From the NCBI RefSeq assembly GCF_900090315.1, contig NZ_FMHZ01000002.1, positions 6,852,501-6,916,500 of the forward strand: 64,000 bases of DNA, written 5' to 3'. Under the pieces are notes generated by a model, which made no database searches, was not told where the DNA came from, and saw nothing but the letters and a program-made list of their open reading frames with translations. Numbering within the stretch: the stretch's first letter is position 1; the number at the start of each line of letters is the position of its first letter. A program made the translations under genes and the position numbers. The stretch comes from Micromonospora citrea. GTDB lineage: Bacteria > Actinomycetota > Actinomycetes > Mycobacteriales > Micromonosporaceae. This document shows, in pieces, positions 7,694-37,366 of the stretch.

Positions 7694-9877
<2,184 letters not shown>

Positions 9878-24950: not shown

Positions 24951-25116
24951 CTGTGCCGGGCCGCCGCCCGGTGTCGCCGGATCGCCTCGTAGCGCACGGC
25001 GCGGCGGCCGTCAGCGATCCAGTCGGCAATCCGTCATCACGCATCCATGAGCTGCGATCGGGTAATCAGATCTTTACGATGTGTCGACGGTCCAGACGAG
25101 GAAGGGTCGTTGCCCC

Positions 25117-26343
25117 GTGCGTCGCCCGACGTTCCGCCCCGCACCCCTCGCCGCGCCGGAGGCCGCCACCGCCCTGCGGCGGCGTGGCGTGCCCGTCGGC
25201 CGGCTGACCGCCCTGTGGGGAGCCGCCGTGGCGGCAGGATTCCTGGCCGTCGCGTTCTCCGCAGACCCGGCCGCCGCCGAGGACGGAGCTTCCGCCGCCG
25301 GGGAGGAAACGCGTGCCGTCGTCGCGGGGCGGGGAGTGCGCGCCGTCGAGGATCGAGCGCCGGCCGCCGTCGCGGGGGAGCGGGCGCGCCCTGCCGCGCC
25401 CGCCACGGCGCCGCCCGCCACGGCGCCGCCCGCCACGGCGCCGCCCGCCACGGCGCCGCCCGCCACGGCGCCGCCCGCCACGGCGCCGCCCGCCACCGCC
25501 GCCCCGCCGCCCGCGTCCCGTATCGGCGCTCGCGCCGTCGCGGCCGCGCCGCCCGCCGCGCCACCGAGCACGTCCCGTGTCGGCCGGCCGACGGACCCGT
25601 CGCGCCTGCTCCGTGGGGCCGCGCAGCCGGTTCCGGCGGGCTCGTCCGTGGCGCCCGGGGTGACCGGGACGCCGTCGTCCCCCGTACGGCCGGGGGAGCC
25701 GTCCCTCGCGTCCCGCAAGGCCGCGACGGCGCCGGCGCGGCCGGTGGACCGCGCGGTGTCGTCGCTCACCACGCGGGTCGCCGCGATCGGGAACTCCGTG
25801 GTGCGGCCCGTGGCCGCGACGACCGCCCTCGTCGAACCGGTCCTCCGCGCGACCCTGACCACCACGCGGGGCGCGGTGGCACACGTCGTCGGGCTGGTCG
25901 GCATGCTCGTCGTCGTGCCGCCGCCGGCTCCCGCGCAGCCTGCCGACCCGTCGTCGTCTCCGGCCGCCGGTCGGGACGTGCCGCCAGCGGCCGCTGCCGC
26001 ACCGGCGGGGGCCGTCGCGCGACCGGACGGGCCGCGGTACGTCGCGCGGGGAGCATCACCCGCCGCCCCGGCGCCGGTGCCCGCCCCGTCGGCCGACGGG
26101 GCGGGTTGGTGCCCGGCGACGACCGGCGGGGCCGTGACGGACCCGGGGCCGGGGCCCGCGGGGCTTCCGTCCCTCCCCGCCGTCCCGGAGCGAGACTGTG
26201 CCGCCGCCACGGACGGCGGCGGCGCGGCGGCGTCGGGGCCGGCCCTCGACGTGGACTGGCCGACGCCGGTCCTGCTCGGCCTCGCCGCCCCGCCCGCGCT
26301 GCCCGGCGACCGGCTCTACGGAGTGAGCGCCCGCCCAGGCTGA
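25117..26343 (+). CDS. Secreted Ala/Pro-rich repeat protein, unknown function
   Basis: This protein of 408 residues has an Arg-containing N terminus, a hydrophobic stretch (LTALWGAAVAAGFLAVAFSA) and an AAA-ED site, a good Sec signal peptide at about residues 28-60. The mature part is low complexity: Ala, Pro, Val, Arg and Thr dominate. It contains six exact ATAPP repeats near residues 96-125, encoded by a 15-bp DNA repeat. No enzyme domain or LPXTG anchor is recognised. GTG 25117 is preferred because GAGGAAGGG precedes it and TACGAT (25075-25080) makes a -10; the in-frame GTG at 25081 directly abuts that -10. A surface stalk or wall-spanning spacer is one guess. Confidence 0.6.
   Translation: MRRPTFRPAPLAAPEAATALRRRGVPVGRLTALWGAAVAAGFLAVAFSADPAAAEDGASAAGEETRAVVAGRGVRAVEDRAPAAVAGERARPAAPATAPPATAPPATAPPATAPPATAPPATAPPATAAPPPASRIGARAVAAAPPAAPPSTSRVGRPTDPSRLLRGAAQPVPAGSSVAPGVTGTPSSPVRPGEPSLASRKAATAPARPVDRAVSSLTTRVAAIGNSVVRPVAATTALVEPVLRATLTTTRGAVAHVVGLVGMLVVVPPPAPAQPADPSSSPAAGRDVPPAAAAAPAGAVARPDGPRYVARGASPAAPAPVPAPSADGAGWCPATTGGAVTDPGPGPAGLPSLPAVPERDCAAATDGGGAAASGPALDVDWPTPVLLGLAAPPALPGDRLYGVSARPG
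25402..25491 (+). repeat. Six exact 15-bp tandem repeats (coding ATAPP)
   Basis: GCCACGGCGCCGCCC is repeated six times without a mismatch, in frame with the secreted protein gene. A seventh unit (GCCACCGCC) is degenerate. Exact units suggest recent slippage and likely length variation between strains. Confidence 0.95.
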
Positions 26344-26539: not shown

Positions 26540-27145
26540 TTGATCCGCGTTGTCGTCGCTGAGGAGATGCGCCTGCTGCGCACCGCGCTGTGCGCGGCGC
26601 TGTCGGGTGAGCAGGAGATCGAGGTCGTCGCGGAGGTGACCGGAACGGCGGAACTGGCCGCCGTGGTGCGCCGGCACCGGCCCGACGTGGTGCTGGTGGA
26701 CCTGGCGTCGGACGTGCCGCAGCCGGTGGAGGTGGTCGCCGAGATCACCGAGGCGGTGCCCGACACGGCCGTGCTGGCGATGGGGCGCCGGTGGAGCCCG
26801 GCGGTGGTCGGTGACCTGCTGGCCGCCGGCGTGCGGGGCCTGGTCGGCAAGGACGCGCCGCTGGAGGCGCTGGTCGGGGCCGTCCGGGAACTCGCCGCCG
26901 GCGGCAAGGTCATCGACGCGGAGGCCGCCGTGACCGCGCTGCGTCCCCCGTCAAGCCCGCTGACCCGCCGGGAGGTGGAGGTGCTGCGGGTGGCCGCCGA
27001 GGGCCTGCCGCTCAAGGAGATCGCCCGCCGCCTCTTCCTGGCGCACGGGACCGTGCGCAACCACCTGTCGGCGATCATGCGCAAGACGGGCGCCCGCAAC
27101 CGCATGGAGGCGGTCTGGCGCGCCCGCCGCGACGGGTGGATGTAG
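26540..27145 (+). CDS. Orphan NarL-like response regulator
   Basis: This 201-residue regulator has a receiver domain and a LuxR-type DNA-binding domain (LTRREVEVLRVAAEGLPLKEI, then HGTVRNHLSAIMRKTGARNR). The receiver keeps the acceptor Asp in VVLVDLAS and the Lys in LVGKDAP, but the acidic pocket reads AEEM instead of the usual DD. No kinase gene is adjacent. TTG 26540 is chosen because CGGAG lies upstream and the protein then begins with the normal IRVVVAEE strand. A paralogue follows at 27302. Orphan NarL regulators of this type include RamR, the activator of the SapB cluster; a link to the lanthipeptide genes nearby is inference. Confidence 0.85.
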   Translation: MIRVVVAEEMRLLRTALCAALSGEQEIEVVAEVTGTAELAAVVRRHRPDVVLVDLASDVPQPVEVVAEITEAVPDTAVLAMGRRWSPAVVGDLLAAGVRGLVGKDAPLEALVGAVRELAAGGKVIDAEAAVTALRPPSSPLTRREVEVLRVAAEGLPLKEIARRLFLAHGTVRNHLSAIMRKTGARNRMEAVWRARRDGWM

Positions 27146-27301: not shown

Positions 27302-27883
27302 ATGGTGATCCGTGCCCTGCTCGCCCTCGACGGCGCCCTGGTCCGTGGCGCGCTTTCGCTCGTCCTCGCCGCCGAGGAGGACATCAGCGTGGTGGCCGAG
27401 CTGGATCGGGGTGACGACCTCCCGCCAGCGGTCCGGGCGCAGCGTCCCGACGTGGCGGTCGTCGACCTCGACCTCGTCGACGAGGCCGGTGTGGCGGGGC
27501 AGTGCCCCCTGCTGGTGCTCGCCGACCGGCGCCGCGCGCGCCGGCTGCACCGGGTCCTGGCACCCGGGCGGACCGTCGGCATCCTCGGCAACGACGTCGC
27601 CCCGCATCGGGTGGTGGACGGGATCCGGCGGTTGGCCCGACGGGAGTCGGTGATCGACGCCGACCTGGTGATGGCGGCGCTGAACCGGGACAGCCCGCTG
27701 ACGACCCGGGAGACGGAGATCCTCGACCTGACCGCCGCGGGGGCGCCGGTCGTGGAGGTCGCCCGGGCGCTCGGGCTCGCCCCGGGCACGGTGCGCAACC
27801 ACCTCGGGCGGATCGCCCGCAAGGCGGGCGCGCGGACCAGGGTGGAGGCGGTGCGGGTCGCCCGCGAGGCCGGCTGGATCTGA
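27302..27883 (+). CDS. Second orphan NarL-like regulator with degenerate receiver
   Basis: This 193-residue protein is a paralogue of the preceding gene. Its DNA-binding domain is intact (LTTRETEILDLTAAGAPVVEV, then PGTVRNHLGRIARKAGARTR). The receiver is poorer: one acidic pocket residue (LALDGAL), the acceptor-like Asp in VAVVDLDL, and Asn in place of the conserved Lys (GILGNDVAP). Phosphorylation control is therefore doubtful; it may be constitutive or ligand-controlled. ATG 27302 and GTG 27305 both follow GGAAGGTC. It has its own terminator-separated unit. Confidence 0.85.
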   Translation: MVIRALLALDGALVRGALSLVLAAEEDISVVAELDRGDDLPPAVRAQRPDVAVVDLDLVDEAGVAGQCPLLVLADRRRARRLHRVLAPGRTVGILGNDVAPHRVVDGIRRLARRESVIDADLVMAALNRDSPLTTRETEILDLTAAGAPVVEVARALGLAPGTVRNHLGRIARKAGARTRVEAVRVAREAGWI

Positions 27884-27981: not shown

Positions 27982-28425
27982 ATGAGTGCGGACAGCTTCC
28001 GCTCGGTGGAGATCGAGCGCACCAGCGTCGGGCAGTACGTCGTGCGGAACGTCCGCGGCGGATCGTTGTCGATGGGCGCCGGCGAGGACGCCAGCTTCAC
28101 GCCGGTGGAACTGCTTCTGGCGGCCATCGGCGGCTGCACGGCGATCGACGTGGACCTCATCACGAGCCGCCGCGCCGAGCCGATCCGGTTCTCCGTCGAG
28201 GTCACCGGCGACAAGATCCGGGACGAGGCCGGGGCGAACCGGATGTCGAACATCGAGGCGCGGTTCACCGTGACGTTCCCGGAGGGCGCGGACGGCGACC
28301 GGGCTCGTGAGGCGCTGCCTCGATCGCTGCAGCAGTCGCACGACCGGCTCTGCACCGTCTCCCGTACCGTCGAACTCGGCACTCCCGTCTCGATCGTCGA
28401 GGCTGCCGGCTCCACCGGAGACTGA
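27982..28425 (+). CDS. OsmC/Ohr-fold peroxiredoxin-like protein
   Basis: This 147-residue protein has the OsmC fold, whose members reduce organic hydroperoxides with two cysteines. The first cysteine is in LLLAAIGGCTAIDVD at the start of the long central helix, and the second is in SHDRLCTVSRTV. Both are in the places expected for a thiol peroxidase. Length is typical. It could detoxify lipid or other organic peroxides in the cytosol. It stands alone, convergent with the beta-helix gene. Confidence 0.88.
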   Translation: MSADSFRSVEIERTSVGQYVVRNVRGGSLSMGAGEDASFTPVELLLAAIGGCTAIDVDLITSRRAEPIRFSVEVTGDKIRDEAGANRMSNIEARFTVTFPEGADGDRAREALPRSLQQSHDRLCTVSRTVELGTPVSIVEAAGSTGD

Positions 28426-28557: not shown

Positions 28558-29712
28558 TCAGTAGGCGTTGTTCGCCGTGGTCAGGCGCACCTCGCCGGCC
28601 GGCAGGGCCGGGCATGCCGCGGCGCCCTTGTACGTCGGGCCCGGCGGGGTGAGCAGCCACACCGGCAGGTTGGCGGTGCTGCCGATCAGGTATGTGCCGA
28701 GGTCGTTGCCGACGAACCGGTTGTGGTACGACGAGCACTCGTTGCCGGCCTCGTTCACCTCCTCCCGGTAGTGGACCATGGACGGCGAGGCCCGCAGGAA
28801 CCCGTTGGCGCCGAACACGTTCTGCTCGAACGTGTTGAAGTTGCTGCCGTCACGCACCTTGATCGGTTCGCTGCTCACGCCGGTCACCTGGTTGCCCGCG
28901 AACCGGTTGCGGGAACTCTTGTGCGTCACGTATACGGCGTGGATGTAGCTGTTCTCGGAGTTGCGCAGGTCGACGAAGTGGTTGTTCTCGATGCGGTTGT
29001 CGGACGACTCGGTCAGCACGATCCCGCCGTACCCGCACCGCAGGAAGTCGGGGTCGTCGCACGAGCCGCCGGTGTAGGCGTTGCCGATCTTCGTGAACCG
29101 CATCCCGAAGGCGGTGTTGCCGTTGAGCCCTCGGGCCGACGGCAGCCCCGGCGCCGAGGACGGCTGGTAGCCGCCGCCGCACGAGCCCGCGGAACCGTCC
29201 AGCGAGAGGGCCGAGCTGGCGTAGTGCTCCACCTGCAGGTAGTAGAACCGCAGCCCGGCCGTGCCGCCGCCGGCGAGCGGCTGGCCCGGGTTGCCGGGAC
29301 AGGCGTAGAACCACGGCCCGGTGATGTAGCGTCCCGATCCGCTGGCGCGCGCGTTCTGGAACACCGGCAGCGCCGCGATACCGTCACGGCCCTCACCGTA
29401 CTCGTAGTCGTCCGGCATGAACGTGATCGTGTGCCCCGGCCGGTAGGTCTGCCAGACGATCCCCTGTGCCACGTACGTGCCGGCGTGGATGCGTACCTCG
29501 ACGTCCGTGTCGAGCGGGCCGGCGGCGACGAGCTGCTGCACCCGGGCGAGGCTGCGGACGGCGGAGCCGGGTGTCGCGCCGTCGCGCGCGTCGTCGCCGG
29601 ACGCGTTCATGTAGATGGTCTGCACGCCCTCGGCAGCGGCGGCCGACGCGACCACGACGACCGACGACAGCCCGATCAGTGCCGCCGCGAGCAGGTGCTT
29701 GAGGCTTCTCAT
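28558..29712 (-). CDS. Secreted right-handed beta-helix protein
   Basis: This 384-residue extracellular protein starts with a Sec signal peptide (HLLAAALIGLSSVVVVASAAAAEG). It then shows the pattern of parallel beta-helix (pectate-lyase-like) proteins: IYMNASGDDARDG...PGSAVRSLARVQQLV, then repeated N-rich turns such as SSDNRIENNHFVDL, SRNRFAGNQVTG and NFNTFEQNVFG. Such proteins bind or cleave polysaccharides. No catalytic triad can be assigned. Several cysteines could form disulfides. ATG 29712 has GGGGAGG upstream. It lies downstream of the lanthipeptide ABC genes on the same strand with a 192-base gap, so co-regulation is possible but unproven. Confidence 0.85.
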   Translation of the reverse strand: MRSLKHLLAAALIGLSSVVVVASAAAAEGVQTIYMNASGDDARDGATPGSAVRSLARVQQLVAAGPLDTDVEVRIHAGTYVAQGIVWQTYRPGHTITFMPDDYEYGEGRDGIAALPVFQNARASGSGRYITGPWFYACPGNPGQPLAGGGTAGLRFYYLQVEHYASSALSLDGSAGSCGGGYQPSSAPGLPSARGLNGNTAFGMRFTKIGNAYTGGSCDDPDFLRCGYGGIVLTESSDNRIENNHFVDLRNSENSYIHAVYVTHKSSRNRFAGNQVTGVSSEPIKVRDGSNFNTFEQNVFGANGFLRASPSMVHYREEVNEAGNECSSYHNRFVGNDLGTYLIGSTANLPVWLLTPPGPTYKGAAACPALPAGEVRLTTANNAY

Positions 29713-29904
29713 GGACGATCCTCCCCGTGTGCGACGCGCCGACCATCCGGAAGGAACGGTCATCATCGATCTTGATCGTCCTGTGATGATGCCATACGCG
29801 GCCTCGTCGGATGCGCCGCGACGTCGCAGCGGCCGGGGCCGCCGGGCGGTTCGGGGCACGGGTTCGACCCGGCTGCCGGCGGGCAACGCGGGTCGGGCGG
29901 TCGG

Positions 29905-31689
29905 TCACGCGTGGGCGAGAGGCACCCGTGGCGGTGTCGCCGCGTCCTGCCAGTGGCCCACCAGCTCCCGGTAGGTGGGGGAGCGGCCGAGCAGCTCGTC
30001 GTGGGTGCCGACGAGGGGCCGGTCGCCGTCGAGGACCAGGATCCGGCGGGCCCGGGTCGCCGAGCTGATCCGGTGGGCGACGACCACCAGCGTGCCGGGG
30101 CGGCGGGCGAAGGCGTCCTCGACGGTCGCCTCCAGCGTCGGGTCCAGGTGGCACGTGGCCTCGTCGAGGATCACCAGCGGCGCCGGGGCGAGGTAGGCCC
30201 GGACGGCGGCGACGAGCTGCCGTTCCCCGGCGGACAGCGCACCGGGGTCGATCTCGGCGGCGAGACCGCCGAGGCGGGTCACGAGGGGACCGGCTCCGAG
30301 GGCGTCCACGGCCGCCGCCACGGTCGCGTCGTCGGCCTCCGGGCGCAGGTAGCGCAGGTTGTCGCCGACGGTGCCGCTGCGCACGTACGCCTCCTGCGGC
30401 ACCAGCACCCGCAGCCGCGCCAGGGTCGTGGGCGAGGCGGCGGCCACGGGCGTGTCGCCGAGGAGTACCGTGCCGGACTCCGGCCGCGCCAGCCCGGCGA
30501 CCAGGGCGGCCAGGGTGGACTTGCCGGCGCCGCTGGGCCCCACGACGGCCAGGTGCTCGCCGTCGGCCACGGTCAGGGTGAAGCCGGCCAGCACGGGCCG
30601 GGCGTGCGGGCCGTACCGGAAGGTCAGCCCGCGCAGCCGCACCGCCGGCGGGGCGGCCGCGGACGCGCCGGGGCGCGACACCGGGCCGGGCACGGCGGGC
30701 GGGTGGGGCGCCGCCGGGTCGGGCCGATCGCCGTCCCCGGGCGGCGGGCAGGTGCGCAGGATCCGGTCCAGGGTGACGGCGTAGCGCAGCCCGCCGCCGC
30801 CCACGCCCTGCACGACGGCGTGCAGGGCGGGTTGCAGGCCGGTGGTGACGTAGACCAACGCGCCCAGCACGGCGCCGGTGCTGAGCCCCTGCCGCACCAG
30901 CCACGGCGCGGCGAGCAGCAGCACCACCACCGGCAGCCAGCCGCCCAGCCCGAGGCTGAGGCTGCGCAGCGCCGCCATCCGTGCGAGGGTCCGCTCGGCG
31001 TCGGCCTGCGCGCCGACCCGCCGGTCGACGCCGGCCGCAACCCGGTCCTGTGCGCCGCAGGCGACCACGTCGCGGTGCCCGGTCAGCGCGGTCGCCGCCG
31101 CCCGGCCGAGTTCCTCGCCGGCGGTCACCTGGGCCCGCTGGTGCGCCACCATCGCCGGCAGCGCCGCCGCGAAGACCGCCAACCCGACCACCAGCGGCGC
31201 GGCCACCGCACCCGCCAGCGGCGGCGCCAGGGCGAGCAGGCCGAGCAGGGCCGCGCCGGCGGTGAACAGGAACCCCCGGACCACCAGCAGCAGCCCGCCG
31301 AAGGTGTCCCGGACGACCTCCGCCTGGTGGGTCAGCCGGGCCACGGCGGCGCTGTCCGGCCGGCCGCCGGCCCGGGTGGCGTCGTGCAGCGCGGCGTGCA
31401 CCACCCGGGCGGCCAGCTCGTCGCGGAACGGCTCGACCACGGCGCCGAGGCTGCGGTAGACCTGCCCGGTGGCGGCCGCGCCGACCAGCACGGCCGCGCC
31501 GAGCCCGGCCAGCCAGGCCAGGCCGGTGGCGAACTGGCCGGCCAGGAAGCCCCGGTCGACCGCGCGGGCCACCAGCAGCCCGCTGAGCAGCGCCGGCAGG
31601 GACTCGACCAACGACCAGGCGGCGAGCCGGCCCAGCTCGCGGCGGCGGGCGCGCAGCGCCGCCCAGGTCGTGCCGCGTACGCCGCTCAC
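29905..31689 (-). CDS. ramB: ABC half-transporter of the lanthipeptide cluster (RamB-like)
   Basis: This 594-residue exporter fuses about six transmembrane helices (residues about 20-300) to an ATPase domain: Walker A VGPSGAGKST, signature LSAGERQLVA (slightly divergent from LSGGQ), Walker B LVILDEATCHLD, and H-loop VAHR. It overlaps the preceding ABC gene by four bases (GTGA), so the two half-transporters probably form a heterodimer. In the SapB cluster the equivalent pair is thought to export the modified peptide. Final gene of the likely operon. Confidence 0.9.
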   Translation of the reverse strand: MSGVRGTTWAALRARRRELGRLAAWSLVESLPALLSGLLVARAVDRGFLAGQFATGLAWLAGLGAAVLVGAAATGQVYRSLGAVVEPFRDELAARVVHAALHDATRAGGRPDSAAVARLTHQAEVVRDTFGGLLLVVRGFLFTAGAALLGLLALAPPLAGAVAAPLVVGLAVFAAALPAMVAHQRAQVTAGEELGRAAATALTGHRDVVACGAQDRVAAGVDRRVGAQADAERTLARMAALRSLSLGLGGWLPVVVLLLAAPWLVRQGLSTGAVLGALVYVTTGLQPALHAVVQGVGGGGLRYAVTLDRILRTCPPPGDGDRPDPAAPHPPAVPGPVSRPGASAAAPPAVRLRGLTFRYGPHARPVLAGFTLTVADGEHLAVVGPSGAGKSTLAALVAGLARPESGTVLLGDTPVAAASPTTLARLRVLVPQEAYVRSGTVGDNLRYLRPEADDATVAAAVDALGAGPLVTRLGGLAAEIDPGALSAGERQLVAAVRAYLAPAPLVILDEATCHLDPTLEATVEDAFARRPGTLVVVAHRISSATRARRILVLDGDRPLVGTHDELLGRSPTYRELVGHWQDAATPPRVPLAHA

Positions 31690-33413
31690 CGGTCGTCACC
31701 ACCTGGCGCGAAGACGGCCCGGTAGTCCGGGTCGGCCCACAGCCGCCGGTGCGGCGCCACGGCCCGCAGCCGGCCGCCGTCGAGCCAGGCGACCAGGTCG
31801 GCGGCGGCGGCCGTCGTCGCGCGGTGGGTCACCACGAGGCGGGTACGGCCGCCGGCTCCGTCGGCCACCGCCCGGGCGATCCGGTGCTCGGTGGCGGTGT
31901 CCAGGCTGGACGTGGCGTCGTCCAGGATCAGCAGCCGTTCGGCGGGGAACGCGCGGGCCAGCCCCAGCCGCTGCGCCTCGCCCCCGGACAGCGGCGCGTC
32001 CGCCAGCCGGGTGCGGAAGCCCTCGGGCAGGCGGGCGACGACGTCGGCGACCTGCGCCGCCCGGGCCACGGCCAGCACCGGCGCGGTGGCCGGCGCGCCG
32101 TCGGCGGGCGGGCGCGCCGAGCCGTCGGGCAGGGCCAGGCCGATCGCGTCGTGCACCGTCTCGCCGACCAGCACCGGCCTGTCGAAGGCGTGCCCGACGG
32201 CCGTGCGCAGCGCGGACCGGCTCAACCGGCGCAGCGGCACCCCGTCGAGCAGCACCTCGCCGGCGTCCGGGTCGTGCAGCCGACCCGCGACGGCGGCGAG
32301 GGTCGACTTGCCGGCGCCGGAGCGCCCGACGACGGCGACCGTGGCGCCGGCGGGAACGGCCAGGTCGATCCCGGCCAGGACCGGCCGCCCGTCCTCGGCG
32401 CGCACGCCGACGCCGCGCAGCCGCAGCTCGCCTCGGCCGGGCGGCAGCGTGTCCGCCCCGTCCGGGCGTGCCGGGTGGGCCAGGGGTTCCGCGATCCGGC
32501 CGGCCGCCGCGCGGGCGCGGACCAGCCGGTTGAGGGTGGCCAGCACCGCGCCGAGCCCGGCGCCGAGGGCGGCGTACTGCACGGCGGCGACCAGTTGACC
32601 GGGGGTGAGCCAGCCGGCGGTGAGCGCGTACCCGCCAACGGCCACGACGGCCACCTGGAGCAGCGGGCCGACGGCGGCGGTGCGGGCGCTGGCCCGGGCC
32701 AGCAGCCGCCAACCGAGCAGGCCGTACCCGCGCAGCTCCGGCAGTGCCGCCAGCACCCGGTCGCGTTCCCGGTCGACGGTGGCGGCGGCGGCGATGGTGC
32801 GGGCGCCGCCGAGCGCCTCCAGCAACCGGCCGGCGATGACGCCCAGCACCCGCTGGTACCCCCCGACGGCGGCGGAGGCGTCGGTGACGAAGGCGCGCAT
32901 GAGCACCGCGAGCAGCGCCAGCCCGCCGAGCAGGGTGGCGCCGAGCAGCGGCTCGATCAGGGTGAGCGCCACGACGCTGCCGACGGGCGGAAGCAGCGCG
33001 ACCACGCCCAGCGTCACGGCGGTGCCGGCCTGCCCGGCGTCGGCGGCCTGGCCGACGAGCCGGCCCACCAGGTCGCCCACCGGGTAGCGGCGGACGGTGC
33101 GCACGTCGGAGGCGAACAGGTGGCGCAGCAGTCGCCGGCGCAGCAGCGCGGTGGCCCGGGCGGCACCGTAGCCGCCGGCGAGGTCGGCGAGGACGTCGGT
33201 GACCATGAGGACGGCGACCAGGCCGCAGGCGGCGGCCGGCCACCAGGAGCCGTGCCCGCCGACGGCGGCGTCGACGGCGAGCCCGAGGGTGGCGGGGAGC
33301 GCCAGTTCGGCGGCCGCGCCGGTGAGCGCGACCGCCCCGAGCAGGACCGTCCAACCGCCGCCGTCGCGGACCACCCGGCGCAGCAGCCGGTCGGAGCCGG
33401 TCAACGTCCGCAT
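31686..33413 (-). CDS. ramA: ABC half-transporter of the lanthipeptide cluster (RamA-like)
   Basis: This 575-residue half-transporter has N-terminal membrane helices and an ATPase domain with Walker A VGRSGAGKST, signature LSGGEAQRLG and a Walker B that reads LLILDDATSSLD. In Walker B the catalytic Glu is replaced by Asp. That degenerate site beside a more normal site in the partner (DEAT) is common in heterodimeric exporters. ATG 33413 has GGGAGG upstream. It follows the precursor gene after an intervening hairpin. It also lacks an N-terminal peptidase domain, so leader removal must be done by another protease. Confidence 0.9.
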   Translation of the reverse strand: MRTLTGSDRLLRRVVRDGGGWTVLLGAVALTGAAAELALPATLGLAVDAAVGGHGSWWPAAACGLVAVLMVTDVLADLAGGYGAARATALLRRRLLRHLFASDVRTVRRYPVGDLVGRLVGQAADAGQAGTAVTLGVVALLPPVGSVVALTLIEPLLGATLLGGLALLAVLMRAFVTDASAAVGGYQRVLGVIAGRLLEALGGARTIAAAATVDRERDRVLAALPELRGYGLLGWRLLARASARTAAVGPLLQVAVVAVGGYALTAGWLTPGQLVAAVQYAALGAGLGAVLATLNRLVRARAAAGRIAEPLAHPARPDGADTLPPGRGELRLRGVGVRAEDGRPVLAGIDLAVPAGATVAVVGRSGAGKSTLAAVAGRLHDPDAGEVLLDGVPLRRLSRSALRTAVGHAFDRPVLVGETVHDAIGLALPDGSARPPADGAPATAPVLAVARAAQVADVVARLPEGFRTRLADAPLSGGEAQRLGLARAFPAERLLILDDATSSLDTATEHRIARAVADGAGGRTRLVVTHRATTAAAADLVAWLDGGRLRAVAPHRRLWADPDYRAVFAPGGDDR

Positions 33414-33435
33414 CGGACCTCCCACCAGGACGTGC

Positions 33436-33469
33436 GGCCCTGGGCGGGTACGTCTACCCGCCCAGGGCC
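33436..33469 (-). terminator. Hairpin between lanthipeptide precursor and transporter genes
   Basis: A perfect 15-bp inverted repeat (GGCCCTGGGCGGGTA at 33436-33450, complement at 33455-33469) with loop CGTC starts 17 bases after the precursor stop. No T tract follows. It probably acts as a partial terminator or mRNA-stabilising stem that raises precursor expression above transporter expression. Confidence 0.75.
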
Positions 33470-33485
33470 TCGCGTGGTGACCTGA

Positions 33486-33605
33486 TCAGTTGCAGGTCGT
33501 GACGGACAGCGAGCTGTCGCCGCAGAGCAGCAGGCTCGCCCGGCTGCCGCCGCCGGTGCGGTCGGCGGGGGCCATCTCCAGGCCCTGAAGGTCCAGAAGC
33601 GCCAT
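33486..33605 (-). CDS. ramS: SapB-like class III lanthipeptide precursor
   Basis: This 39-residue precursor begins MALLDLQGLE, the leader box (LxLQxLE) recognised by class III LanKC enzymes, and ends SRASLLLCGDSSLSVTTCN. By memory, the last 19 residues of S. coelicolor SapB are SRASLLLCGDSSLSITTCN, so only Val for Ile differs. Two SxxSxxxC units (SRASLLLC, SSLSVTTC) give the Ser/Ser/Cys triads from which the rings form. A near-perfect ribosome site (AAGGAGGTGA) overlaps the lanKC stop six bases upstream. The product should be a small amphipathic morphogenetic peptide that lowers surface tension for aerial growth. The leader lacks the longer middle part of RamS, and the leader/core cut site is unknown. 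Confidence 0.93.
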   Translation of the reverse strand: MALLDLQGLEMAPADRTGGGSRASLLLCGDSSLSVTTCN

Positions 33606-33611
33606 GTCGTG

Positions 33612-36206
33612 TCACCTCCTTCCGTGCTGGTCGGTCGGGTCGGTCGCCCTCGCATCGGCGAGGGAGTCGGTGGCGCCCGACAGGGGCGCGAGGAACGGCA
33701 GGGCCACCGGCGCGTCGTGCCGCGCGGCGGCCAGCGCCAGCAGCACGCCGGCGGTGCCGGTGCCGAGGTCCATGGACAGCCGCAGCAGCTGCTCGCCGGG
33801 GAACGCGGTCCCGTCGGCGTAGGGCAGGGCGTGCCAGGCCAGGCGCCGCACCTGCGTCGCCAGCTCCCGCCGCAGCCCCGGATCGTCGGGGTACGCCGCG
33901 AGGTAGGTGACGATGCCCGCCCGCCCGGCGAACAGGCCCGACTGCGCGTAGAACGGGGACCGGGCGGCGCGGCGCACGCCGGCGCTGGCCTCGGCGAACC
34001 GCTCGTCGGCCTGGTGCCGCAGGTACTGGTCGAGCACGAGCCCGATGCCGACGCTGCCCTGCCCCAGGTAGGGCATGGTGCGCCAGCCCTCGTTGACCTC
34101 CAGTGCGCCGTCGGGGCGTACCACGCAGCGGCGCAGGTCCTGCCGCAGGGCGGTCGCGGCGTGCTCCAGCAGGGACCGCTCGCCGGTCAGCTCGTGCAGC
34201 CGCACCAGCAGCAGCGCCGGCCCGGTCCGGCCGCGCAGCAACCCGGCGTACGGGTGCCTGCCGCCGCTGACCTCGGGCCCCGGATCGTCGGCGAGCTGCT
34301 CGATCACCCGCTCGGCGGCCCGCCAGGCCGCGTCGCGCAGGGCCGTCTCGCCGGTGCGACCGGCCAGCTCGGCCAGGTTGAGCGCGATCCCGGACAGGCC
34401 ACCCGAGAGGCTGTGGTCCAGGCCGTCCAGCGGCTGGCGCAGGCAGATGTCGAGCACGTCGAGGGCGTCCTGCCGGCGGCCGAGCGACTCCAGGGCGTAC
34501 GCGACGCCGTGCAGGCCGTCGTAGAAGCCGCACCGGGTGCCGGCGGCGGGCGACGTGGCCCGGCGGACCAGCCACCGCTCGTGTTCCGGCCAGCGTCCGG
34601 CGCCGCTGACGTGCAGGGCGTACAGGACGCCGGCGGCACCGTGGGCGAGGTTGAGCCCGCCGCTGCGGAACTGCTCGATGTCGCCGGGGAAGAGCCGGTC
34701 GTCCCGGCCGGGCGTCGCGCTGGCCAGGATCGCCCGGGCGAGCCGGTCGCGGTGCTCCGGGCCGACGTCGACGGTGAGGTCGGGGGCCGGGTCCTCGGTC
34801 GGTTCGCCGGTGATCTCGGCCACGGCGGCGTCGAGGAGCTCCCTCGGCACCGGGAAGTGGGTGGCGATCACGTCGGCGAGGTGCGCGGCCTTTGCCGGCG
34901 CCAGCCGCACCAGCTGGGTCAGCGGCAGGAACAGCGCGAGCCGCAGGCAGGCCAGGGCGTAGCGGTCGACGGCGGGACCCGTGCGGTCCCGGGGCGCGGC
35001 GAAGCCCTGGTTGCGCAGGCCGGGCCGGCGGTGCCCGTCGATCGGGGCGGCGACCTCGAAGTCCACCAGCGCGATCCGGTCGTCCGGGCGCACCATGACG
35101 TTGAACAGGTGCAGGTCGCCGTAGACGAGGCCCCGCTCGTGGATCGCCGTGACGACCTGTTCGACCTGCCGGTGGACGTCCAGCGCCCACCGGGTGTAGT
35201 CGGCGCGGTCGGCGTCCGTGGCGTCGGCGTCGATCAGCGGATACCTGTCGACGAGGACCTTGTTGAGCGCGCGGCCCTCGATGAACTCCAGCGCGAGGAA
35301 CCGGTGCTCGCCGAGGGTGAACTCGTCGTGCACCCGGGGCACCTGCGGCAGGTCGGCGAGCCGGCGCAGCGCCTCGGCCTCGCGGGCCAGCCGGGCGACC
35401 GCGTCGGCGCCGTCGGCGTCCAGGCCGGCGTGCGGGCGGGCCTCCTTCAGCACCACCTGCGTGTCGGTGCGCACGTCCCGGCCCACGTAGAGGCCGCCGC
35501 CGTTGGAGAAGTGGATGACCTTCTCGATGCGGTACGGCACCTCGTCGGTGCTGGTGGCGTTGCGGGCGGCCAGGTGCGGGCCGAGGAAGTCGGGCAGCGT
35601 CACCCAGGACGGCACGTGGAAGACGGGATCGCGGCGGTCGGGCACCAGGGTGCCGCTGTCGTCCTCGATCGCGGGGACCACCTGGCCGTCGGGGGAGTGG
35701 CAGAAGCGGGCGGCGAAGCCGCCGTAGCGCACGTGCACCGGGCCGGCGCCGTGACGCAGGTCGCTGAGGATGTACGGGCCGGGCTCGCCGGCGAGCAGCT
35801 CGTCGAGCTCCTTGCAGACCAGCTCCAGCTCGGCGTCGTCGCGGGGGTAGACGGTGACGAACTTGCCGCTGGCCGCCCGGGAGGCGTACTTGGAGTTGCG
35901 CAGCAGCAGGGTGCGGGGGCCGCGGAGGAACTTGAACGACAGCCCGCGCGGGACGCAGTAGTCCCAGACCGTCTCCAGTACCCGGTCGGCGTTCGCCAGC
36001 GTCGCCGAGACGTGGATCTTCCAGCCCTGCTGCGGCAGCGAGCCGCCCTCGGGGGCGTAGATCAGCCAGTCGTCGAGCGGCTCGGAGCGCCAGCCCTCGG
36101 GCACGGGCCGTCGGGCCGCCGCGAAGGTGGGCTGCTCCACCGCGTTGCCGAGCGAGTCGTAGAACAGCCGGTCGGCGGCGCAGTAGCTGTCGTAGCGATC
36201 GTCCAC
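33612..36206 (-). CDS. ramC: Class III lanthipeptide synthetase LanKC (RamC-like)
   Basis: This 864-residue enzyme phosphorylates Ser/Thr of the precursor, eliminates phosphate to dehydro residues and cyclises them with cysteine. Residues about 1-210 form the lyase region. Residues about 215-490 form a Ser/Thr-kinase-like domain with QVVLKEARP (ATP-binding Lys), LVYGDLHLFNVMV (catalytic loop, YGD for HRD) and LVDFEVA (metal-binding Asp). Residues about 520-864 are a LanC-like cyclase with GFYDGLHGVAYAL and no visible zinc triad, as expected for class III. GTG 36206 is chosen over GTG 36215 because the ribosome site GGAAGGAG directly abuts the latter. It is the first gene of the minus-strand cluster; its stop lies inside the precursor ribosome site. 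Confidence 0.95.
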   Translation of the reverse strand: MDDRYDSYCAADRLFYDSLGNAVEQPTFAAARRPVPEGWRSEPLDDWLIYAPEGGSLPQQGWKIHVSATLANADRVLETVWDYCVPRGLSFKFLRGPRTLLLRNSKYASRAASGKFVTVYPRDDAELELVCKELDELLAGEPGPYILSDLRHGAGPVHVRYGGFAARFCHSPDGQVVPAIEDDSGTLVPDRRDPVFHVPSWVTLPDFLGPHLAARNATSTDEVPYRIEKVIHFSNGGGLYVGRDVRTDTQVVLKEARPHAGLDADGADAVARLAREAEALRRLADLPQVPRVHDEFTLGEHRFLALEFIEGRALNKVLVDRYPLIDADATDADRADYTRWALDVHRQVEQVVTAIHERGLVYGDLHLFNVMVRPDDRIALVDFEVAAPIDGHRRPGLRNQGFAAPRDRTGPAVDRYALACLRLALFLPLTQLVRLAPAKAAHLADVIATHFPVPRELLDAAVAEITGEPTEDPAPDLTVDVGPEHRDRLARAILASATPGRDDRLFPGDIEQFRSGGLNLAHGAAGVLYALHVSGAGRWPEHERWLVRRATSPAAGTRCGFYDGLHGVAYALESLGRRQDALDVLDICLRQPLDGLDHSLSGGLSGIALNLAELAGRTGETALRDAAWRAAERVIEQLADDPGPEVSGGRHPYAGLLRGRTGPALLLVRLHELTGERSLLEHAATALRQDLRRCVVRPDGALEVNEGWRTMPYLGQGSVGIGLVLDQYLRHQADERFAEASAGVRRAARSPFYAQSGLFAGRAGIVTYLAAYPDDPGLRRELATQVRRLAWHALPYADGTAFPGEQLLRLSMDLGTGTAGVLLALAAARHDAPVALPFLAPLSGATDSLADARATDPTDQHGRR

Positions 36207-36442
36207 CGTGACCACTCCTTCCGCTGTTCGGTCGAGCCCTCGGCCCTGCTGACGGATACGAGTCTGTCCGTTCGGCCCATGGCGGCTCCAGTGTGATCAG
36301 TCATGACGATGGATGCGTGCCGCACGGGCCGCCGTGACAAATGTCAGGCGTACCGGGACGGACGCCCGCCGTGCCGGGCCCCGCCGCCCTGCCCGGGCCG
36401 GGCGGTGCGGGCACCCTGGTCGGTGGCGGTACGGTGCTCGCC
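36207..36442. promoter_or_regulatory. Divergent control region of lanKC and the lipid kinase
   Basis: This 236-base gap must hold the lanKC promoter on the minus strand. A palindrome TGACA-AA-TGTCA lies at 36335-36346, and TGATCAGTCATGAC lies near 36295-36305; both look like regulator sites. No convincing -35/-10 pair for lanKC was found, consistent with an activator-dependent promoter. Confidence 0.4.
36430..36435 (+). promoter_or_regulatory. -10 element TACGGT of the lipid kinase gene
   Basis: TACGGT ends seven bases before GTG 36443. Confidence 0.45.
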
Positions 36443-37366
36443 GTGACCGCAGACGATCACCCCTGCGCCGCCGGCGGGCCCGTCGCCGTGCTGGCCAACC
36501 CGACGGCGGGACGGGGCCGGCACCGAGGGCTCCTGCCGCAGCTTCTGCGCCGGCTCGCGACCGCCGGCCGACCGGTGCGCCTGCTGCACGCGCACAGCGC
36601 CGACGAGGCCGAGGCGGCCTGCCGCGCGGCGGTCGCCGACGGCGCGTCCGCCCTGGTCGCGGTGGGCGGCGACGGCACGGTGCACCGCGCGTTGCAGGCG
36701 GTCGCCGGCACGACGGTGCCGTTCGGCCCGGTGCCGGCCGGCACGGGCAACGACTTCGCGGTCGACACCGGCTTCCCGGCCGACCCCCTCGCCGCCGTCG
36801 ACGTGATCGCGGCGGCGTTGCGCGACGGCCGCGCCCGGCCGGTGGACCTGGCGCGGCTGACGGGCGTCGACGGCACGCACCGCTGGTACGGCGCGGTGCT
36901 CGCGGCCGGCTTCGACGCGATCGTCAACGAGCGGGCCAATCTGATGCGCTGGCCGCGCGGCCCGCGCCGCTACGATCTGGCGATCCTGGTGGAGCTGGCC
37001 CGGCTGCGCCCGCGCCGCTACACGCTGCGGCTCGACGGGGTGGCGCACGAGGTGGACGCCGTGCTGGTGGCGGTGGGCAACTGCGCCAGCTACGGCGGCG
37101 GGATGCGGATCTGCCCCGACGCCGATCCGACCGACGGGCTGCTCGACGTGGTGGTGGGCGGCCGGTTCGACCGGCGCACCCTGATGCGGGTCAAGCCGCG
37201 CATCTATCGCGGCACCCACGTGACGCATCCGCTGGTGCGCAGCCACCGTGCCCGCACGGTCGAGCTGAGCGCCGAGGGCATCACCACGTACGCCGACGGC
37301 GAGCGGTCGCTGCCCCTGCCGGTGACCGTCACCGCCGTCCCGGGCGCCGTCCTCCTGCTGCGCTGA
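36443..37366 (+). CDS. Diacylglycerol/lipid kinase family protein
   Basis: This 307-residue DagK/YegS-type kinase probably phosphorylates a lipid hydroxyl with ATP at the inner membrane face. The nucleotide loop VAVGGDGTVHRALQ is near residues 72-85, PVPAGTGNDFA near residues 95-105 is the second family signature, and NCASYGGGMRICPDADPTDGLLDV is the C-terminal beta-sandwich motif. Start GTG 36443 gives ...GGPVAVLANPTAGRG near the N terminus as in relatives; the longer frame from 36341 lacks support. Divergent from lanKC. Confidence 0.92.
   Translation: MTADDHPCAAGGPVAVLANPTAGRGRHRGLLPQLLRRLATAGRPVRLLHAHSADEAEAACRAAVADGASALVAVGGDGTVHRALQAVAGTTVPFGPVPAGTGNDFAVDTGFPADPLAAVDVIAAALRDGRARPVDLARLTGVDGTHRWYGAVLAAGFDAIVNERANLMRWPRGPRRYDLAILVELARLRPRRYTLRLDGVAHEVDAVLVAVGNCASYGGGMRICPDADPTDGLLDVVVGGRFDRRTLMRVKPRIYRGTHVTHPLVRSHRARTVELSAEGITTYADGERSLPLPVTVTAVPGAVLLLR

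Follow-up and report, generated by a model that had tools for sequence, protein, structure and literature searches.

In Streptomyces coelicolor, the ramCSAB genes together with ramR correspond to SCO6681-SCO6685 (accessible part of PMC4255298), and SapB is described as a surfactant aiding aerial hyphae in the accessible parts of PMC9011353 and PMC4255298. According to the accessible text of PMC5765111, aerial hyphae were absent from its Micromonospora strains, though almost half of these carry a sapB cluster; earlier accounts of Micromonospora forming sterile aerial hyphae are also cited there. The puzzle posed by SapB where aerial hyphae are few, which the original prediction had raised for the present locus, was thus already in print in that part of PMC5765111. 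Here, the locus was compared with these systems by its gene content, conservation, putative control elements and regulators.

Gene content and organisation of the locus

The window, i.e. the whole stretch of 64,000 nucleotides of Micromonospora citrea DNA that was analysed, contains a ramS-like precursor gene at 33486..33605 on the minus strand. The minus-strand translation of 33605-33486 reads MALLDLQGLEMAPADRTGGGSRASLLLCGDSSLSVTTCN followed by a stop (39 residues), and is composed of the leader MALLDLQGLEMAPADRT, GGG and the core SRASLLLCGDSSLSVTTCN. This 39-residue frame was matched by the family models Pfam RamS PF19402 (E 4.1e-16, 59.6 bits; cut-off 24.3) and NCBIfam SapB_AmfS_lanti NF033212 (64.1 bits; cut-off 25). 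The pooled pairwise pN/pS of the precursor, calculated for the window and 15 hand-picked close-type relatives out of 80 loci, was 0.09, so that the frame acts like a protein-coding sequence under purifying selection. A chance ORF at 33486-33605 was ruled out by the family E-values and by this ratio, and both the reality of the frame and its assignment as a SapB-like class III lanthipeptide precursor, as originally predicted, were upheld.

The lanKC gene (33612..36215, minus strand), encoding a ramC-like class III lanthionine synthetase, was assigned by NF038151 (1138.7 bits; cut-off 575) and Pfam. Its product carries RamC_N, kinase and LanC-like domains, the kinase motifs GDLHLFN and DFE are present in the translation, and its residues 50-853 are covered by matches to LanKC structures of the PDB. 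A ribosome-binding site, AAGGAGGTGA, was read from the sequence at 33612..33621 (minus strand). The TGA inside this site is the stop codon of lanKC, with six bases from the end of the site to the ramS ATG at 33605, which agrees with the prediction that lanKC flanks the frame and that the ribosome site lies over its stop; this overlap suggests translational coupling.

Downstream of ramS, a ramA-like ABC exporter gene was located at 31686..33425 (minus strand; Pfam ABC_membrane and ABC_tran) and a ramB-like one at 29905..31689 (minus strand; ABC_tran over the cut-off, ABC_membrane below it). The four genes are arranged head-to-tail on the minus strand in the order lanKC, ramS, ramA-like and ramB-like, and all four frames are intact. 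The locus had been thought to lack other ram-type genes; this was wrong, since two ABC exporters in ramA-ramB order and two convergent RamR-family regulators adjoin the precursor and synthetase genes. As judged from its sequence, the locus is a complete ramC-S-A-B operon with linked RamR-like regulators. No sigma-70 promoter or terminator was found by a scan of 29800-36500, and none of the six genes (the operon and both regulators) contains a TTA codon.

For the comparison of gene order, the best 80 of 216 LanKC relatives were used, among which the top-scoring ones are from Micromonospora, in line with the host suspected in the original prediction. A ramA-like match was present downstream of lanKC in 76 of the 80 loci and a ramB-like match in 73. 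The loci with neither match either end soon after lanKC (L057, L087 and L065, the last of which ends 59 bases past the lanKC match) or read N behind it (L072), and those with a ramA-like match only (L095, L103 and L131) are short as well. The DAGK, HAD and helicase genes upstream of lanKC in the window were common to 7 of the 80 loci (L052, L053, L056, L060, L062, L068 and L077); in the rest, the operon lies elsewhere or among other genes, or the locus sequence is too short to judge.

Distribution and conservation

A precursor family match was obtained in 79/151 Micromonospora genomes, in 103/250 genomes of the bacterial family (25/44 genera; 101 genomes over the cut-off) and in 48/394 genomes of the class (47 over the cut-off). 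LanKC was detected at E <= 1e-150 in 84/151 Micromonospora genomes, including all 79 precursor-positive ones; the genomes with LanKC and no precursor match were G019, G063, G097, G103 and G114. G103 has the coordinates of L072 (Micromonospora sp. ATCC 39149), in which the precursor stretch reads N, and the missing precursor there is therefore no evidence of loss. Of 6757 candidates in a search with the aligned precursors of relatives, 824 proteins reached E <= 0.001, and the cluster holding the window peptide comprised 10 member sequences on 256 contigs among the matches listed.

All 39 residues were identical in 18 loci, all of them Micromonospora, among the best 80 of 216 LanKC relatives. 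Their genes differ from that of the window at 2 to 8 silent positions, and the 19 genes, that of the window included, represent 10 distinct nucleotide sequences. The exact 19-residue core recurred in 5 of the 28 loci obtained by the class search (L134, L135, L139, L140 and L143 among L133-L160), which makes Val an ordinary variant of the family, and a core ending in SITTCN, the Ile form, was present in L138 and L147 in the same class-wide search. The SapB core of S. coelicolor presumably has Ile where the window core has Val. The predicted Val-for-Ile change thus describes the core properly, but it is not unusual, Val being common in the family. Likewise, the strong selection suspected behind the near-identity is in keeping with the low pN/pS, whereas the near-identity itself is common in the genus and the family and is not special to this genome.

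This invariance bears on the possibility that an antimicrobial lantibiotic is made, class III lanthipeptides generally having modification chemistry and exporters in common with lantibiotics. Bacteriocin cores diversify, whereas the present core hardly varies among many Micromonosporaceae; moreover, the precursor matches the SapB/AmfS family, and no immunity gene was recognised among the listed neighbours. A lantibiotic system is consequently regarded as extremely improbable, and the reading of the locus as a SapB/AmfS-type operon was retained.

In a second operon type of Micromonospora, the leaders are GMELPAAERT-like and the precursors are often present as two or three tandem copies. At L074 (Micromonospora okii), the precursor combines a normal leader with the diverged core PGPASNASVVLCPISVMSLITC (near 8668), with a LanKC 81% identical to that of the window; a change of product is possible there. 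A second LanKC (46% identity) is encoded elsewhere in the genome from which the window was taken (G000:C2:6013092-6015602), and the family search of that genome gave no RamS-family precursor besides that of the window.

The hairpin between ramS and ramA

A perfect, G+C-rich 15-bp hairpin is situated between ramS and ramA at 33436..33469 (minus strand). No T run or terminator-like site was found at the hairpin, which is therefore no canonical intrinsic terminator, and Rfam gave no match within the 64-kb window. Covariation was analysed in an alignment of 26 sequences from 29 sources (no core match was obtained in L065, L072 and L074), in which 95.3% of the cells pair. Thirty-one cells were changed on both sides, a count reached by 0/500 shuffles of the 26 sequences, and the covariation score of 0.263 was likewise reached by 0/500 shuffles, with slid controls at <= 0.058. 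Two of the five measures fail to exceed the shuffles, namely the pairs with double changes (5/13; 63/500 shuffles as high) and the further pair types (192/500 shuffles as high), and the outermost counted pair is broken in 16/26 sequences.

In the loci of the LanKC relatives, a perfect stem of at least 10 bp was found behind 29/42 last precursor copies (24/28 of the close type) and behind 0/15 earlier copies; the 13/42 last copies lacking a perfect 10-bp stem belong mostly to the second operon type or to other genera. Its most likely role, conjectured here, is that of a partial terminator or of an mRNA stabiliser favouring the precursor over the transporter.

Elements upstream of lanKC

The palindrome TGACATTTGTCA, a candidate operator, lies at 36335..36346, some 130 bp ahead of the start of lanKC, and nothing else in the window matches its pattern exactly. 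A second element, GTCATGAC, is located at 36300..36307, also upstream of lanKC, and is partly conserved in relatives. Among the best 80 of 216 LanKC relatives, a similar palindrome of the form TG[AT]CNNNNGTCA was present within 250 bases upstream of the lanKC match in 33 loci, a count that is descriptive, the palindrome having been found by inspecting the same alignments; no such palindrome was found at any of seven control offsets, with 76-80 regions for each. It lay 130-136 bases before the lanKC match begins in 32 of the 33 loci (31 from Micromonospora, Verrucosispora or Plantactinospora, together with L088 from Amorphoplanes); in L128 the distance was 142 bases. The palindrome was missing in front of lanKC in the second Micromonospora operon type (L080, L082-L087, L089, L090 and L118). 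A search of the own genome with a two-part operator pattern gave no match with a gap of 5-25 bases, the real gap in the window being 29. RamR-like proteins might bind the palindrome.

RamR-like regulators

Two genes for RamR-family regulators of the LuxR/NarL type are located on the plus strand, regulator 1 at 26543..27145 (start codon uncertain; listed ORF from 26414) and regulator 2 at 27302..27883; both are convergent to ramB and were assigned by sequence search and tree. With the RamR-like protein of the Streptomyces-like ram locus L162 as query, 33 matches were obtained in the own genome, among which regulators 2 and 1 ranked third and fourth, respectively, the two best being encoded elsewhere in the genome. 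Among the best 80 of 216 LanKC relatives, 66 loci were assessable for regulators and 14 were not; past ramB, two convergent RamR-like genes were present in 32/66, one in 27/66 and none in 7/66. The RamR-like genes of relatives lie mostly -34 to 365 bases from the end of the ramB match, and at 1574 in L078.

The regulator tree was constructed from 74 protein rows, i.e. 48 operon-linked ones (the window and 33 hand-picked loci) and 26 own-genome paralogues; L187 and L194 (both partial) and three matches without a locus were omitted from the 33 own-genome matches. The 48 operon-linked rows together with two unlinked own paralogues, L165 and L166, were separated from the 24 other own LuxR-type paralogues with support of 100/100, and the operon-linked rows alone formed one side of a branch with support of 57/64. 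Regulator 1 clusters with Micromonosporaceae (99/83), and regulator 2 also does so (99/96), within a set that also contains Glycomyces. By tree placement, the window pair is assigned to the RamR-like clade linked to the operon, and its members are not the best own-genome matches to the Streptomyces-like RamR. An ABC ATPase-domain match was found by tblastn near L165 and no lanKC beside L165 or L166; the position of both on the operon side of the tree means that the RamR-like family extends beyond the operon.

An OsmC-family gene (27982-28425) and a gene for a secreted right-handed beta-helix protein (28558-29886) are situated between ramB and the regulator pair, and neither was found in the available DNA of the 80 loci (best 80 of 216 LanKC relatives). 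Next to the pair lies an open frame (25081-26343, plus strand) in which an APPAT unit is repeated.

A decaying relic, left after aerial growth was lost, is suggested by the OsmC and beta-helix genes between ramB and the regulators and by the 72/151 Micromonospora genomes with no precursor match, from which the operon is taken to be dispensable. However, the four operon frames are intact, the pooled pN/pS is low (0.09), and the hairpin and the upstream palindrome are conserved, all of which argue for a maintained operon and make a relic highly unlikely.

Proposed working of the operon

On the basis of the observed gene content and order, conservation, hairpin covariation and regulator phylogeny, the locus is very probably a complete SapB/AmfS-type operon, of which the product would be modified by LanKC, exported by RamA/RamB and probably surfactant, with control by the hairpin and the RamR-like regulators. 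LanKC would bind the 39-residue precursor through its LLDLQ leader. From SapB, on which ring formation, export, trimming and the surfactant role are modelled, LanKC would be expected to phosphorylate and eliminate the core serines and to close two Ser...Cys rings, the RamA/RamB ABC pair to carry out export, and a protease whose gene lies elsewhere to trim the leader; the product would then probably be an amphipathic surfactant at the colony surface. With four waters lost, its calculated monoisotopic mass would be 2125.99, 2024.94, 1967.92, 1910.90 or 1853.88 for a peptide beginning at T17, G18, G19, G20 or S21, respectively. As conjectures, the hairpin behind ramS probably keeps the precursor mRNA above the transporter mRNA, and the two convergently transcribed RamR-like regulators probably act at the palindrome upstream of lanKC.

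Chaplin search and the use of the product

With the chaplin model at E <= 0.001, no match was obtained in the 151 Micromonospora genomes, nor in the 14 preset control genomes of the search. Twelve further genomes, to which loci compared here belong, were chosen as controls; 11 of them gave a match, all six Streptomyces among them at best E <= 4.1e-26. In two control genomes from the same family, those of L097 and L098, the matches were weak (E 9.7e-4 and 1.6e-6, respectively), so that diverged chaplins may be missed.

This contrast between 0/151 and 11/12 genomes, together with the strains without aerial hyphae in the accessible part of PMC5765111, would be in keeping with a use of the SapB-like peptide other than aerial growth, such as spore or colony wettability, surface spreading or attachment, in the absence of chaplins. 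Against it stand the sterile aerial hyphae cited in the same part of that paper, the weak matches in the genomes of L097 and L098, which show how diverged chaplins may escape, and the chaplin-unlike hydrophobic wall proteins CwpA/CwpB of Actinoplanes (accessible part of PMC13251363). Such a use is given somewhat less than an even chance; it differs from the operon reading set out above only in what the peptide is used for, and both can hold.

A more specific proposal is that Micromonospora uses SapB without chaplins, under a RamR-like pair at a palindromic operator, for a surface function other than that in aerial hyphae. It is put forward tentatively and regarded as less probable than not; if true, SapB would act as a surfactant on its own, independently of chaplins. 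The interest of the locus comes from the puzzling use to which Micromonospora puts SapB, which is separated there from the aerial-hypha and chaplin machinery usually discussed alongside it. With an almost unchanged core, no chaplin match and hardly any aerial hyphae, the genus is suited to asking what SapB does alone, and the regulator pair and the palindrome would offer a handle on its expression.

Comparison with known systems

The locus has in common with the S. coelicolor SapB system the precursor family, an LLDLQ-type leader motif, LanKC, two ABC exporters and the gene order, and the core is, as we take it, near-identical to that of S. coelicolor SapB. It differs by two RamR-like regulators instead of one, by Val for Ile, by the lack of a TTA codon in the six genes and by belonging to a genus with no chaplin match, and the precursor of S. 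coelicolor is presumably longer (42 residues versus 39). A RamR-type gene convergent to ramB occurs in the window and also in the Streptomyces-like loci L161-L164. The core of AmfS, as we assume, differs from the window core. AmfS (S. griseus) and durhapeptin (S. durhamensis), as far as the accessible part of PMC13380574 describes them, belong to the same SapB/AmfS family, with the LLDLQ motif and a LanKC of the RamC/AmfT group, and the durhapeptin core given there also differs from that of the window, its cluster being described with three genes, one of which is a transporter.

The Micromonospora SapB clusters of PMC5765111, PMC9967187 and PMC9011353 are from the same genus and have the same predicted product, whereas the regulator pair, the hairpin and the palindrome are undescribed in the accessible parts of these papers. 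In a limited search of the open-licence literature, no description was met of the regulator pair, the covarying ramS-ramA hairpin, the palindrome at near-fixed distance or the chaplin absence. The SapB cluster in Micromonospora is thus already known, and with its complete and widespread gene set the window peptide is an ordinary member of the family.
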